From NCBI GenBank assembly GCA_027067575.1, contig JAMOVQ010000115.1:1-34359 (forward strand): a stretch of DNA of 34,359 nucleotides, written 5' to 3'. The stretch comes from Thermoanaerobaculia bacterium. Lineage in GTDB: Bacteria > Acidobacteriota > Thermoanaerobaculia > Thermoanaerobaculales > Sulfomarinibacteraceae. Positions 1 to 31,869 of this stretch are shown piece by piece. The translations under genes were made by a program, and so were the position numbers. A model generated the notes under the pieces. It saw only the letters and a list, made by a program, of their open reading frames with translations, did not search any database and had not been told where the DNA came from. How positions within the stretch are numbered: position 1 is the first letter of the stretch; every line of letters starts with the position of its first letter.

Positions 1-139
1 CGCTTCGTCGTCACGACCGCCAGGTCAGTTCCTCCTCGCGCCCTTGCGGGAACGGCCCCGGGGCACGATCCGCGCGGCCCCTCCTCGTCACGGCGAGTGG
101 CGGTCGCAGGCCGGGCGCCGCGTGCGCGGCTCCCCCGGG
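1..139 (+). repeat. Dispersed repeat family 1, copy A
   Basis: This stretch matches the reverse complement of 28487-28624. The first 83 bases are identical except for one transition at base 30. A core of about 24 bases (84-107) is unrelated between copies. The last 31 bases (109-139) are again identical. It contains palindromes, such as GCCCCGGGGC near base 55 and GCCGCG-TG-CGCGGC near 117-130. Open frames here are not protein-like. The element may continue to the left of the window. Confidence 0.85.
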
Positions 140-406
140 TCGCTGCGCTCCCCGGGGCCGTGGGGGCGTGTGCGCCCCGGCTCCTGCGGCTCGGGCTGCA
201 CCCCGTGGCGACGCACCCGGACGGCGTACTCACCGTCTTACCCTTCCCCCTCCCGCGCCCCCTCTCGGGCCAAGACGGCTGCGCTCGCCGCCCGGGCACG
301 CCTCCACGGGGCTTGCCCTCGCCTCCGTCCCCGGACCGCCCCCGCCCCCACGCCGGCCCGTTCCTCGTGGGGCGCTCGATCGCTGGATGGCGGAGGACTC
401 CGTTGA
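140..406. other. Non-coding, hairpin-rich stretch
   Basis: No credible gene is seen. The sequence is C/G-rich with short inverted repeats, for example GGGGCG-TGTG-CGCCCC at 163-178 (6-bp stem, tetraloop). Several frames stay open on both strands, but only because stop codons are rare in such GC-rich DNA; their translations are Pro/Arg/Ala strings. It bridges the family 1 repeat and the tandem array. Confidence 0.6.
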
Positions 407-945
407 GGGGGCAGTCCCAATCGTGAAGGCCGGGGTTCTTTGGAGCGCCAGCCGGGACGTTGCTTCGCTCGTCCCTGGGCGGGTGGGGGGGTGGGGTACC
501 AGGCGGGGCGGTCTCGTTTTGGCCAACGGGTCGGTCGGGTTGGGGACAGTCCCGATTGTGAAGGTCGGTGGTTCTCTGAGGCGCCAATCGGGACATCGCT
601 TTGCTCGTCCCTGGGCGGGCGGGTGAGAGGGGCACTGGGTGGAGGAGCTTCGTTTCGGCCGGCGGGTCGGTCGGGTTGGGGACAGTCCCGATCGTGAAGG
701 GCCTGGTTCTCTGAGGCGCCAGTCGGAACATCGCTTCGCTCGTCCCTGGGGAGGTGGGTGTGTGGGGTACCACGGGACAAGAAAGGGACATTGTTGATCT
801 CTGCTGCTCCAAGCGCAGTCGCGATCGCGGAGGGGTCCTTGGGAAGCGAGCCGGGACGTCGCTCCACTCGTACCTGGGAGCGTGGAGAGTGTGGGGCACC
901 GGCTGGGAGTACTTCGTTTCGGCCGAAAGAGAATAGGGGACGGTG
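407..945 (+). repeat. Diverged tandem repeat array, units of about 135 bp headed by GGGGACAG
   Basis: Unit heads lie at 407 (GGGGCAGTCCC), 542 and 678 (GGGGACAGTCCC, each followed by GAT-TGTGAAGG or GATCGTGAAGG), 785 (GGGACATTGTTGATC) and 936 (GGGGACGGTGTTTGATT). Spacings are 135, 136, about 106 and about 152 bp. Inside each unit is a GGGAC...GTCCC inverted repeat around GCTTCGCTC (for example 462-483), best kept in units 1 and 2. The first units end in CGGGTCGGTCGGGTTGG. Units decay from left to right. A lone related head recurs at 19879. The spacing and lack of unique spacers exclude CRISPR; the look is REP-like, without a neighbouring transposase. Confidence 0.8.
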
Positions 946-19719: not shown

Positions 19720-19911
19720 CTCCCATGAGAATCATTTCACAAACCGTAGTCTCCCGCAATACGGCCTCCGGAGAGGTCTTCCCTGCGACCTGGCGGGAGG
19801 TGGTGGTGCTCGGGCGATGAGGTCTGGAGGGTTGTGTGTGGTCTCGACGCGGCGGTAGCGTCCGTGAAAACACGAAAAGGGGACAGTGTTGGGCTTCCGT
19901 CAGCCGTGGCC
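19720..19911. other. Non-coding gap with a lone GGGGACAG repeat head
   Basis: No gene is seen between the M20 gene start and the family 2 repeat. At 19879-19888 AAAAGGGGACAGTG repeats the unit heads of the array at 407-945, best matching those at 785 and 936 (GGGACATTGTTG and GGGGACGGTGTT). Just before it is a small inverted repeat, CGTG-AAAA-CACG (about 19863-19874). This looks like an isolated REP-like fragment. The M20 gene promoter must also lie here, but no clear hexamer pair was found. Confidence 0.5.
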
Positions 19912-20039
19912 AACCGGCGGCCGGCCCCCGCGCTGCGCGCGGGCTGCGCGCCTCGCCCGTGCGCTCCGGTGGGAGCGAGCTCCCCCCGGTTCGCCCGTTC
20001 GATGCGCTGGCGCCGCCTGCGGCGTCGCTGCCGGCCGCC
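19912..20039 (+). repeat. Dispersed multi-hairpin repeat family 2, copy A
   Basis: This 128-bp element matches the reverse complement of 28711-28838 without gaps, with 12 differences by my count. Four inverted repeats are visible: CCGG-CGG-CCGG at 19914-19924, CCCGCGC-TGC-GCGCGGG at 19927-19943, GGGAGC-GA-GCTCCC at 19971-19984, and CGCCGC-CT-GCGGCG at 20011-20024. All differences between copies fall in loops or spacers. It lies just upstream of metG. Confidence 0.85.
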
Positions 20040-20084
20040 GGTTCACCCCCCGGCGCACGGGCGGCGCCCGGCGCGGTGCGGTGG

Positions 20085-20113: not shown

Positions 20114-22036
20114 GTGAGCGACACGTTCTCCATTACGACGCCGATCTACTACGTCAACGACCTGCCGCACATCGGCCACATCTACACGACGGTGATGGCC
20201 GACATCTTCGCCCGGTACCACCGGATGGCCGGCCGGAGGGTCCGCTTCCTGACGGGGACCGACGAGCACGGGCAGAAGATCGAGCGGGCCGCCGCGGCGC
20301 AGGGGATCGAGCCCATCGCCCTGGCCGACCGGGTCGTGGAGCGGTACCACGAGCTCTGGAAGGAGTTGGGGATCTCCCACGACGACTTCATCCGGACCAC
20401 CGAGCCTCGCCACCACCGGGCCGTCCACGAGATGATCCGGCGGATGCAGGCGAGCGGCGACCTCTACCAGGGCTCGTACACCGGCTGGTACTGCGCCGGG
20501 TGCGAGGCGTTCTACCCCGAGACGCAGCTCGTGGACGGGAAGTGCCCGGACCAGGGCCACCCCGTGGAGCGGCTCTCCGAGCCGAGCTGGTTCTTCCGGC
20601 TCTCGGCGTACCAGGACCGGCTGCTGGAGTGGTACCGCGAGAACCCGGACTGCATCCGGCCCCGAAGCCGGTACAACGAGGTGGTCCGGTTCGTCGAGGG
20701 GGGCCTCAACGACCTGTCGGTCTCCCGGACCTCGGTGCGGTGGGGCGTCCCCTGGCCGGGCGACCCGGACCACGTGGTGTACGTCTGGCTCGACGCCCTG
20801 ACGAACTACGTCTCGGCGCTGGGGTTCGGCTCGGAGGACGACGGCCTCTTCCGGGAGTTCTGGCCCGCGGACCTCCACCTGGTGGGCAAGGACATCCTCC
20901 GGTTCCACTGCGTCTACTGGCCGGCGTTCCTGATGTCGGCCGGGCTGCCGCTGCCGCGGACGGTGTTCGGGCACGGCTGGTGGAAGACGGGCGAATCGAA
21001 GATGTCCAAGTCGCTGGGGAACGTGGTCCGGCCCGACGCCCACATCCGGCGGTTCGGTCCCGACGCCGTGCGCTACTTCCTCGCCCGGGAGATGACGTTC
21101 GGCGCCGACGCCTCGTTCTCCAACGAGGCGTTCGTCGAACGGTACAACGCGGACCTGGCCAACCACCTGGGCAACGCGGCCTCCCGGACGCTCTCCATGA
21201 TCGGCCGGTTCCTCGGGGGCACCATGCCCGCCGCCGGGAGCGAGGGCGTCCTCCCGGAACGAGCCGCGGAGACCGTGGCGGTTTACCGCGAGCGGATGGA
21301 GGCGCTGGAGCCCAACCGGGCGCTGGAGGCGGTGTGGGCGTTCCTGGCGGACCTCAACGGGTTCATCCAGGAGCGGCAGCCATGGGCCATCGCGAAGGGC
21401 GGGGAGACGGCCCGGCCCGAGCTCGAGGCGGTGCTTGGCACGGCCGCGGAGAGCCTGCGGATCACCTCGATCCTGATCGAGCCGTTCATGCCGCGGATCG
21501 CGGCCGCCCTCCACGAGGCGATGGGCTCCCCATCCACGCCCCGCGACCTGGACGGCGGCGCACGGTGGGGCCTCCTGGCCGGCGGCGCCACCATCGGGAA
21601 GCCGAAGCCGTTGTTCCCCAGGGTCGACCTCGAGGAGTTCGTCAAGGAGCTGGAGATGGAGCAGCAGAAGGACAGCAAGACGCCGGAGAAGAAGGACGAA
21701 CGGCAGGAACGGACGATCACCATCGACGAGCTGGCGAAGGTGGAGCTGAAGGTCGGTGTAGTGCTCGAGGCGGAGCGGATCCCGAAGTCGAAGAAGCTGC
21801 TGAGGCTCCGGGTCGACCTCGGCGAGGAGGAGCCGCGCCAGATCGTCGCGGGGATGGCGGACTCCTACGAGCCCGAGGCCATGGTGGGCCGGCGCGTTGT
21901 GGTGGTGGCCAACCTCAAGCCCGCGAAGCTCATGGGGGTCGAGTCCCAGGGGATGATCCTGGCCGCCGATATCGGGGGGAGGGCGTTCCTCCTCTCGCCC
22001 GACGGCGAGGTTCCGCCCGGCACGACGGTCCGGTAG
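20114..22036 (+). CDS. metG: Methionyl-tRNA synthetase
   Basis: MetRS charges tRNA-Met for initiation and elongation. The 640-aa protein shows the HIGH motif at residues 19-22, KMSKS at 296-300, the connective-peptide zinc site starting YCAGCEAFYPETQLVDGKC (the fourth Cys seen in many relatives is replaced, KCPDQGH), an anticodon-binding helical domain, a charged linker (EMEQQKDSKTPEKKDERQER) and a C-terminal EMAP-like tRNA-binding OB domain from about residue 535 (ITIDELAKVELKVG ... LMGVESQGMILAA). The C-terminal domain is fused, as in the dimeric long form. The GTG start is set by AGGAGG seven nt upstream. A family 2 repeat lies 74 bp upstream. Confidence 0.97.
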   Translation: MSDTFSITTPIYYVNDLPHIGHIYTTVMADIFARYHRMAGRRVRFLTGTDEHGQKIERAAAAQGIEPIALADRVVERYHELWKELGISHDDFIRTTEPRHHRAVHEMIRRMQASGDLYQGSYTGWYCAGCEAFYPETQLVDGKCPDQGHPVERLSEPSWFFRLSAYQDRLLEWYRENPDCIRPRSRYNEVVRFVEGGLNDLSVSRTSVRWGVPWPGDPDHVVYVWLDALTNYVSALGFGSEDDGLFREFWPADLHLVGKDILRFHCVYWPAFLMSAGLPLPRTVFGHGWWKTGESKMSKSLGNVVRPDAHIRRFGPDAVRYFLAREMTFGADASFSNEAFVERYNADLANHLGNAASRTLSMIGRFLGGTMPAAGSEGVLPERAAETVAVYRERMEALEPNRALEAVWAFLADLNGFIQERQPWAIAKGGETARPELEAVLGTAAESLRITSILIEPFMPRIAAALHEAMGSPSTPRDLDGGARWGLLAGGATIGKPKPLFPRVDLEEFVKELEMEQQKDSKTPEKKDERQERTITIDELAKVELKVGVVLEAERIPKSKKLLRLRVDLGEEEPRQIVAGMADSYEPEAMVGRRVVVVANLKPAKLMGVESQGMILAADIGGRAFLLSPDGEVPPGTTVR

Positions 22037-28274: not shown

Positions 28275-28486
28275 CCCGCCCCCGTCCGGCCCGTCCACCA
28301 CGGCGGAAGCGAAGGCCGCTTCGCCCTGCTCCGGTCCGAGCCGCCCGGACGGGGCACCTGCCTCGGCTCCCCTCCCCCAGGAACCGGACGAGGGGATGGA
28401 AACCGCACTTCCAGCCGCCCATGGTCCTTGACGCGCTGAGCCAACCCTGGAGCAGGAAACAGACGGCGCCCCCTGTTCGAGAGCAT
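28275..28486. other. Non-coding stretch upstream of kdsC
   Basis: No gene is seen. The stretch must hold any upstream control elements of kdsC. It is slightly less GC-rich around 28395-28475 than the flanks. No match to the other repeats in the window was found by eye. Confidence 0.4.
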
Positions 28487-28624
28487 CCCGGGGGAGCCGC
28501 GCACGCGGCGCCCGGCCGCGAACGCGCCCCAACGAAGCGATGAGGGGCCGCGCGGATCGTGCCCCGGGGCCGTTCCCGCAAGGGCGCGAGGAGGAGCTGA
28601 CCTGGCGGTCGTGACGACGAAGCG
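28487..28624 (-). repeat. Dispersed repeat family 1, copy B (inverted)
   Basis: The reverse complement of this 138-bp stretch matches bases 1-139: an 83-base block with one difference, a central core of about 24 bases that does not align (here TCGCTTCGTTGGGGCG), and a 31-base identical block. The sharp edges of the unrelated core suggest replacement or gene conversion around it rather than drift. It lies 86 bp from a family 2 copy in the same orientation. Confidence 0.85.
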
Positions 28625-28710
28625 TCCGCGGCGGGGGCGGTCCCGGGGTGCGAGACTCGCGGCCCCGTTCATCCAAAGTCGATGACTCGACCGCCCTCCA
28701 ACGAAGCCCA

Positions 28711-28838
28711 GGCGGCCGGCAGCGACGCCGCAGGCGGCGCCAGCGCGTCGCACGGGCGGTCCGGGGGGAGCAAGCTCCCACCGGGACGCGCGGGCGAGGC
28801 GCACAGCCCGCGCGAAGCGCGGGGGCCGGCTGCCGGTT
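28711..28838 (-). repeat. Dispersed multi-hairpin repeat family 2, copy B (inverted)
   Basis: This is the inverted partner of 19912-20039, 128 bp, about 90 percent identical and colinear. In this copy the loops read CAG, TTC, TT and CT in the order of copy A; the stems CCGG, CCCGCGC, GGGAGC and CGCCGC are unchanged. It lies 112 bp before the promoter of the aminotransferase operon, so both copies lie upstream of housekeeping genes. Confidence 0.85.
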
Positions 28839-28987: not shown

Positions 28988-30201
28988 ATGAGCATCAGCC
29001 AGATCGCACGGACCATCCGCACTTCGGCGACCCTGCGGCTCAACGAGACCGCTGCGGTGCTGCGGCAGAAGGGCGAGCCGGTCATCCACCTGGGAGGCGG
29101 CGAGCCGAAGGGACGCGCCCCCATCGAGGCCGTCACGGCGGCCGCCGCGCTGCTGGACTCGGGCGAGGTGCGCTACACCCCGGCCGACGGGATCGTGCCG
29201 CTCAAGCAGGCGATCATCCGGTACACGGAGGAGTTCTACGGGCGGCTGGTGGCGCCGGAGAACGTCATCGCCTCGGGCGGGGCCAAGCAGGCGATCTACG
29301 TGGCGCTCCAGGCGGTGCTCAACCCGCAGGAGGAGGTCATCTTCCCCGCGCCGTACTGGGTCAGCTACCCGGAGATGGTCAAGCTGCTCGGCGGCGTCCC
29401 CGTCCCGGTGCTGCCCGAGGACGGGACGTTCCACCCGAGGCTCAAGGACATCGAGGACCGGGTGACCTCCTACACCCGCGTCATCATGATCAACAGCCCC
29501 AACAACCCGACGGGCGTCATGTACTCGGAGGAGTTCATCCACGAGATCGTGGACTTCTGCGAGCGCCGCGGGATCTGGCTGATCATGGACGACATCTACC
29601 ACCGGCTGATCTTCGACGGCCGGCGGCCGGTGTCGGCGTACGCCCACACCTCGAAGGACGTGGACTCCAGCCGCCTGATCGTGGTCAACGGCGTCTCCAA
29701 GCAGTACGCCATGACCGGTTTCCGGATCGGCTGGGCCGTGGGCCCGAAGGAGCTGATCCGCGTGATGCGGGACATCCAGGGGCACCAGACCTCCGGGCCC
29801 TCGGCGCTGCTCCAGTGGGCGGCCGTGGGTGCGCTCAAGGGGATCCAGTCGTCGGTGGACTCCCTGCGGCTGACGCTGGAGAACAACCGCAACGTCATGA
29901 TGGATCGGCTGAACGCGTTCGACGGCGTCCACGTGACGAGGCCCGACGGGACGTTCTACTGCTTCGCCGACTTCTCCAACTACGAGAAGGACTCGGAGAA
30001 GCTGTCCGAGCTGCTGCTGGAGAAGGTCCGGGTCGTGACGGTGCCGGGCAAGGAGTTCGGCCTCGACGGGCACCTCCGGCTCTCGTACTGCGGCTCGATC
30101 AAGGAGATCACCGAGGGGATCGAGCGGATCAAGTGGGTGCTCGACCCCAACGCCCCCAACGAGCTGTACATCGGCGAGCGCAAGCTTGTGAGGGACTGGA
30201 C

Positions 30202-30205
<4 letters not shown>
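28988..30205 (+). CDS. Class I PLP-dependent aminotransferase, aspartate aminotransferase-like
   Basis: A 405-aa fold-type I transaminase. Motifs: YTPADG near 63-68, SGGAKQAIY (PLP phosphate site), the aromatic stacking APYWVSYPEM, SPNNPTG at 170-176 (Asn contacting PLP), DDIYHRL at 201-207, the Schiff-base Lys238 in VNGVSKQYAMTGFRIGW, and a C-terminal LRLSY carboxylate-binding Arg. It resembles bacterial class Ib aspartate/prephenate aminotransferases, interconverting aspartate and oxaloacetate among others, but exact specificity is not readable. Its TGA overlaps the ATG of pckA (ATGA), so both are co-translated. Because oxaloacetate is a product of one enzyme and a substrate of the other, the pair makes metabolic sense. 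Confidence 0.9.

Positions 30206-31869
<1,664 letters not shown>

Follow-up and report, generated by a model that had tools for sequence, protein, structure and literature searches.

A large, modular, hairpin-forming interspersed repeat in a Thermoanaerobaculia genome, likely of the MITE/REPIN kind

Related repeat families and the copies in the window

The BOX elements of Streptococcus pneumoniae are modular intergenic repeats in which a head module is joined to internal units repeated a variable number of times, and ERIC is a 127-bp palindrome, nearly the same size as the 128-bp element described here, which we designate P. MITEs such as ERIC, Correia, and QMITE (PMC10969869) are non-coding and intergenic, amplify in a lineage-specific manner, and occur with many truncated variants, all of which is true of the P family. 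The REPINs and REP-BIMEs, with their associated RAYT transposases (PMC3116915, PMC2817692), are intergenic, high-copy, hairpin-forming inverted repeats that carry compensatory changes, as P does, and REPINs offer a precedent for hairpins in which such changes are common and for collapsed palindromes (PMC3116915). We consider it likely that P and the composite repeat that it heads constitute a lineage-specific, non-autonomous interspersed repeat of the MITE/REPIN/BIME kind, which would have spread as DNA. The P family is most likely a known kind of genomic parasite in an unusually large, modular version, with a conserved fold that is borne out by the data and a function that is putative only.

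The resemblance to each of these families is partial. P-family repeats are short, non-coding, high-copy, and intergenic, as expected of MITEs, and solo and minimal copies bear terminal inverted repeats; the solo form is 128-132 bp, but the composite, at up to ~1.2 kb, is longer than is usual for a MITE. Differences from MITEs are that no target duplication or parent insertion sequence was detected for the family, that most copies, unlike a classical MITE, have no detectable right terminus, and that the internal modules covary. With REPINs and REP-BIMEs the family shares high-copy extragenic palindromes, collapsed single palindromes, and a host genome encoding Y1-type RAYT genes (with an NCBIfam match below the curated cut-off) close to tags of the kind that opens the T units of the composite. 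REPs of the classic sort measure 20-40 bp and have GTAG-like heads, whereas P is 128 bp long, has a 14-bp GC-rich terminus that lacks the tag, and serves as the head of a modular repeat; and by the P and linker motifs used, P does not flank a RAYT gene in inverted orientation as a REPIN/REP would. By general description, the composite is like a BOX element in having a head module and repeated internal units, but differs in module order, size, and composition.

The host genome comprises 3.08 Mb in 191 contigs, one of which (C115) is the window, the whole 34,359-nt stretch of DNA that was analyzed. Copy A (19912..20039, + strand) is a solo P of 128 bp in which a terminal stem (19916-19925 paired with 20030-20039) encloses hairpin 1 (19927-19943), a central long hairpin (19948-20007), and hairpin 4 (20008-20027), all on the + strand. 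It starts with the left terminal inverted repeat AACCGGCGGCCGGC (19912..19925, + strand), and because it is solo, the right terminal inverted repeat GCCGGCCGCCGGTT is also present (20030..20043, − strand). The initial annotation described two 128-bp units, which is accurate for copy A, but copy B is not free-standing: its P head (28711..28838, − strand) continues as a longer repeat (28481..28710, − strand) consisting of a linker beginning TGGGCTTCGTTGGAGGG, a hairpin module Q, and the start of module R, truncated at ~28481. Among the matches listed, this continuation matches at least 40 places in the genome. A third, composite copy (1..922, + strand, end approximate) consists of part of Q followed by R, S, and T units, and has no P head because the contig begins inside Q. 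It includes a covarying S stem within 222-339, in which the 5′ arm CCGTCTT pairs with AAGACGG (232..280, + strand; pair counts of alignment A2), and T-unit tags, for example at 543 and 678. The solo copy adjoins metG (20114..22036, + strand) and the composite copy B adjoins a class I/II aminotransferase gene (28988..30205, + strand) and an ATP-type pckA (30211-31869). The identity of these three neighbors was confirmed, but the link of P to these housekeeping operons, upstream of which the initial annotation placed both copies, looks incidental, with P copies adjoining many different genes.

Copy number, distribution, and modular architecture

The genome-wide search suggested by the initial annotation returned many further copies. 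There are at least 66 copies of P in the host genome, corresponding to 73 matches by covariance model and to 68 BLAST records, a few of them partial. The last 34 bp of P, allowing up to 3 mismatches, match 68 sites, compared with none for a reversed control, and the left terminal repeat matches 123 sites with up to 1 mismatch, compared with 7 for the reversed control pattern. The copies carry unique upstream flanks at many different sites and are intergenic, and a crude gene call places the 5′ end of P next to a gene start 40 times and next to a gene end 21 times. The intergenic position and the excess at gene starts would suit cis-regulatory or terminator-like elements recruited near genes for effects on supercoiling, termination, or mRNA stability, as has been proposed for REPs; however, the gene calls are crude and the copies adjoin many unrelated genes, and we regard this explanation as extremely unlikely.

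P was not convincingly found by covariance model and DNA query in 59 relatives of the same family, order, and class belonging to other genera; weak DNA matches were obtained in relatives, and those inspected by sequence look like chance similarity in GC-rich coding DNA. The terminal 15-mer of P is strongly enriched in the host only (107 sites vs. 3 for the control). Plasmids, phages, and viral contigs gave no meaningful match, a 41-bp plasmid match inside an integrase gene being judged to be due to chance, and the exact P core was found in no further genome of a public genome collection from which the host or very near records were possibly left out. Among the genomes searched, the P family appears confined to the host lineage. 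At gathering scores, Rfam returned nothing for the window; in loci bearing the element, no match with E up to 1 covered it, and a tRNA/tmRNA search within the repeats found none. Judging from the lack of Rfam matches and the indels between copies, the repeats seem to encode no evident protein or known RNA. Sub-threshold Rfam matches to asponA were not relevant, and a cobalamin riboswitch (RF00174, 57 bits) is present in the flank near one P copy (L028:286-444).

Of the 68 records, 62 (28711-28838 among them) have P as the head, at the 5′ end, of a longer repeat in which it is followed by one common linker, beginning TGGGCTTCGTTGGA. The modules of the full composite are ordered P, linker, Q, R, S, followed by T units of ~137 bp, the starts of which occur ~190 times genome-wide compared with once for the control. 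Solo P is found in only three records (copy A, L002, and L070), where it is closed by the inverted 14-bp terminus. Terminal inverted repeats at both ends are found in the solo copies, in a minimal form (L248) in which the two termini are fused into a perfect palindrome, and in a 1.2-kb composite (L194) whose 3′ end carries the inverted terminus; in most full composites the right terminal repeat is not detectable downstream. Internally deleted derivatives (L235-L251) keep the 5′ terminus AACCGGCGGCCGGC and jump to later modules. An outer arm ~20 bp upstream of P is weakly conserved. Because 43 of the 68 records reach a contig end within 700 bp downstream, the repeat family accounts for many assembly breaks.

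The unique flanks at many sites are those of copies inserted between genes, and in the copies internal or 3′ modules are lost but the 5′ terminus stays fixed. Neither excision nor an empty site was seen, the relatives covered being of other genera. No target site duplication was evident by eye at the flanks of solo copies, where the outer arms are degenerate and the boundaries uncertain, and no autonomous element with P termini was found among the termini listed, with many contigs breaking inside repeats.

Stem conservation, covariation, and its possible sources

A script comparison of copy A with the reverse complement of 28711-28838 recovered exactly the 12 differences listed in the initial annotation. 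The accompanying statement that no difference lies in a stem applies to the four local hairpins recognized there; counting the terminal inverted repeat and the whole of the central stem as well makes two of the 12 paired, at 19919 (terminal stem) and 19999 (central stem). On the consensus fold, which has 47 pairs (94 of 128 columns paired, 34 unpaired), the other 10 differences are unpaired, and the chance of two or fewer falling in paired columns is 2.5e-5. When the structure was taken solely from the single-stranded DNA (ssDNA) fold of copy B itself, four of the 12 differences were paired (P 0.003). Copies A and B fold better than dinucleotide shuffles both as DNA (z −2.0 to −6.4) and as RNA (z −3.4 to −5.7).

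The additional copies show the same pattern. In an alignment of 60 P copies (A1), 50 of which are type-1, standard pairs occupy 97.3% of pair cells, and 30 pair cells are changed on both sides, compared with 6.8 in shuffles and with none of 500 shuffles as high. Among the type-1 copies (n = 50), 0.96% of paired cells are changed vs. 10.5% of unpaired cells, so that changes are far rarer in stems than outside them. With many further copies and stems that vary less than loops, neither of the outcomes named in the initial annotation as refuting was observed. Two types of P are separated by paired changes, for example GGGAGC/GCTCCC in one and GGAAGC/GCTTCC in the other. The S stem, the clearer case, compared in 23 copies, exists in several alternative complementary arm pairs, with a covariation score of 0.355 vs. 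0.083 in shuffles, a score that collapses in slid versions, and with 28 double-changed cells, a number reached in none of 500 shuffles. Since the shuffle and slide controls leave relatedness in, the covariation counts in P and S do not represent independent events.

Strong covariation in P, S-stem arms that come in several complementary versions, RNA folds that beat shuffles on both strands, and a large size with several modules are features that would fit a functional structured RNA family, in which the composite would be transcribed and selection on the RNA would keep the stems covarying. Against this stand the lack of Rfam matches and the absence from the 59 relatives described above, the frequency of internal deletions and mosaics, and the loop polarity and better ssDNA folding of the opposite strand described below. 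Type-1 stems, with 13 C>T and 9 G>A changes, also show no excess of G-U over A-C intermediates, although the C>T/G>A asymmetry itself is uninformative as a test for RNA. We consider such an RNA family very unlikely.

Arm-to-arm copying is a further possible source of matched stems. Two Q copies, which belong to different stem types, have a 5′ arm in which ~8 consecutive bases depart from those of sibling copies and are an exact match to the 3′ arm of the same copy. Hairpins are known to arise and persist through template switching (PMC8794818), of which the two rewritten arms are the expected footprint and which may account for some of the covariation. Mosaic hairpins, one half type 1 and half type 2 (L192) and one with a mixed S stem (L012), show exchange between copies. 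Given the rewritten arms and mosaics, covariation need not mean selection on every pair. The same observations lend themselves to a neutral explanation, according to which the fold is unselected, the arms stay complementary through template switching in replication and gene conversion among copies, and the repeat is a decaying remnant. Arm copying does not predict loops with conserved outer positions and a free middle base, nor retention of the 5′ terminus in many otherwise deleted derivatives, and we think a wholly neutral origin unlikely. The proposal of selection on a folded RNA or DNA is upheld as to a conserved nucleic-acid fold but not as to functional selection, since arm-to-arm template copying during DNA replication yields the same pattern. 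With dozens of copies and at least two alternative complementary stem sequences in one genome, the family provides a natural experiment on hairpin selection vs. template-switch arm repair, a question that is open both for REPs and for RNA stems.

Loop polarity, single-stranded DNA, and candidate transposases

Read on the P(+) strand, five hairpins of the composite have T-N-C loops in which the middle base is free to vary. The loop is present in 57/60 and 60/60 copies of two P hairpins, in 30/32 and 22/22 copies of two R hairpins, and in 63/65 copies of a T hairpin, a pattern that was spotted in the data first and counted afterwards and that is lacking in about half of the composite's hairpins. 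In the background, perfect hairpins with loops of three bases had TNC or GNA in 4 of 31 cases in the window outside the elements and in 4 of 83 in other genomes. On the strand opposite P(+), the TNC loops read C-GNA-G, and GNA loops make extraordinarily stable DNA mini-hairpins (PMC4686876). Consistent with this polarity, calculated DNA energies make the opposite strand the more stable as ssDNA in all 60 P copies and in 24 of 26 T hairpins. The loops and the better ssDNA folding of the opposite strand favor ssDNA over RNA as the acting molecule, as a lead with numbers rather than a proof. Of the two forms first proposed, RNA or cruciform DNA, it is DNA hairpins that the polarity and strand-specific folding support, with RNA less favored, and the strand-polar GNA loops make ssDNA the form predicted to matter.

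The repeat would probably spread as DNA via single-stranded hairpins, the strand opposite P(+) folding into a multi-armed structure with GNA-triloop caps. It could be moved in trans by a Y1/HUH transposase that recognizes hairpins, for which the RAYT-like proteins of the host are candidates; stems may stay matched because the hairpin is required for copying, helped by template switching in which one arm is copied onto the other, as the footprint in two Q copies suggests. A bolder interpretation makes the composite a large mobile element of a new type, moving as structured ssDNA, with the strand opposite P(+) forming a multi-armed head and a series of GNA-capped hairpins that an HUH transposase would read, and with stems diversifying through compensated change between subfamilies; we judge this quite improbable and retain the lineage-specific MITE/REPIN-like repeat as the preferred reading.

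Four Y1_Tnp (RAYT-like) loci score above the Pfam cut-off in the host genome (L231-L234, L272-L275; contigs C189, C154, C47, and C140), and two of the genes begin almost identically. One gene examined matches NCBIfam REP_Tyr_transpos at 6e-14, below the curated cut-off (52 vs. 80 bits). GGGACA[CG]T tags lie beside the RAYT-like genes, in inverted orientation at L274, and the same tag opens T units. P termini have no GGGACA tag, so the link to RAYT runs through the T units only. Of the P and linker motifs that were looked for, the RAYT flanks contained none, and with only the tag shared by T units, P is not filed as a REP. A RAYT-like protein is a candidate mover of T units, and of the whole repeat only by extension.

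A member of the tag family, GGGGACAGTGTT (19878..19891, + strand), is located immediately upstream of the solo P copy, and the family is also found at T-unit starts and beside RAYT genes. The short tag AGGGGACA[CG]TGTTT occurs at 19878-19891 and at many sites in the host and in genomes of the family, being enriched in several genera (for example, 61 vs. 1 for the control in genome G009), and it looks like a separate REP-type repeat. A T-like unit with 84% identity over 104 bp is present in another genus of the family (G006 C2:16036-16137; L256, L265), a real but single occurrence that adjoins the same GGGACACTGTTT tag. At five loci (L071, L215, L041, L063, and L229), a shared stretch of approximately GGCGAAGCAATCCCTGGCAGC lies 50-70 bp upstream of P and is probably another dispersed repeat.
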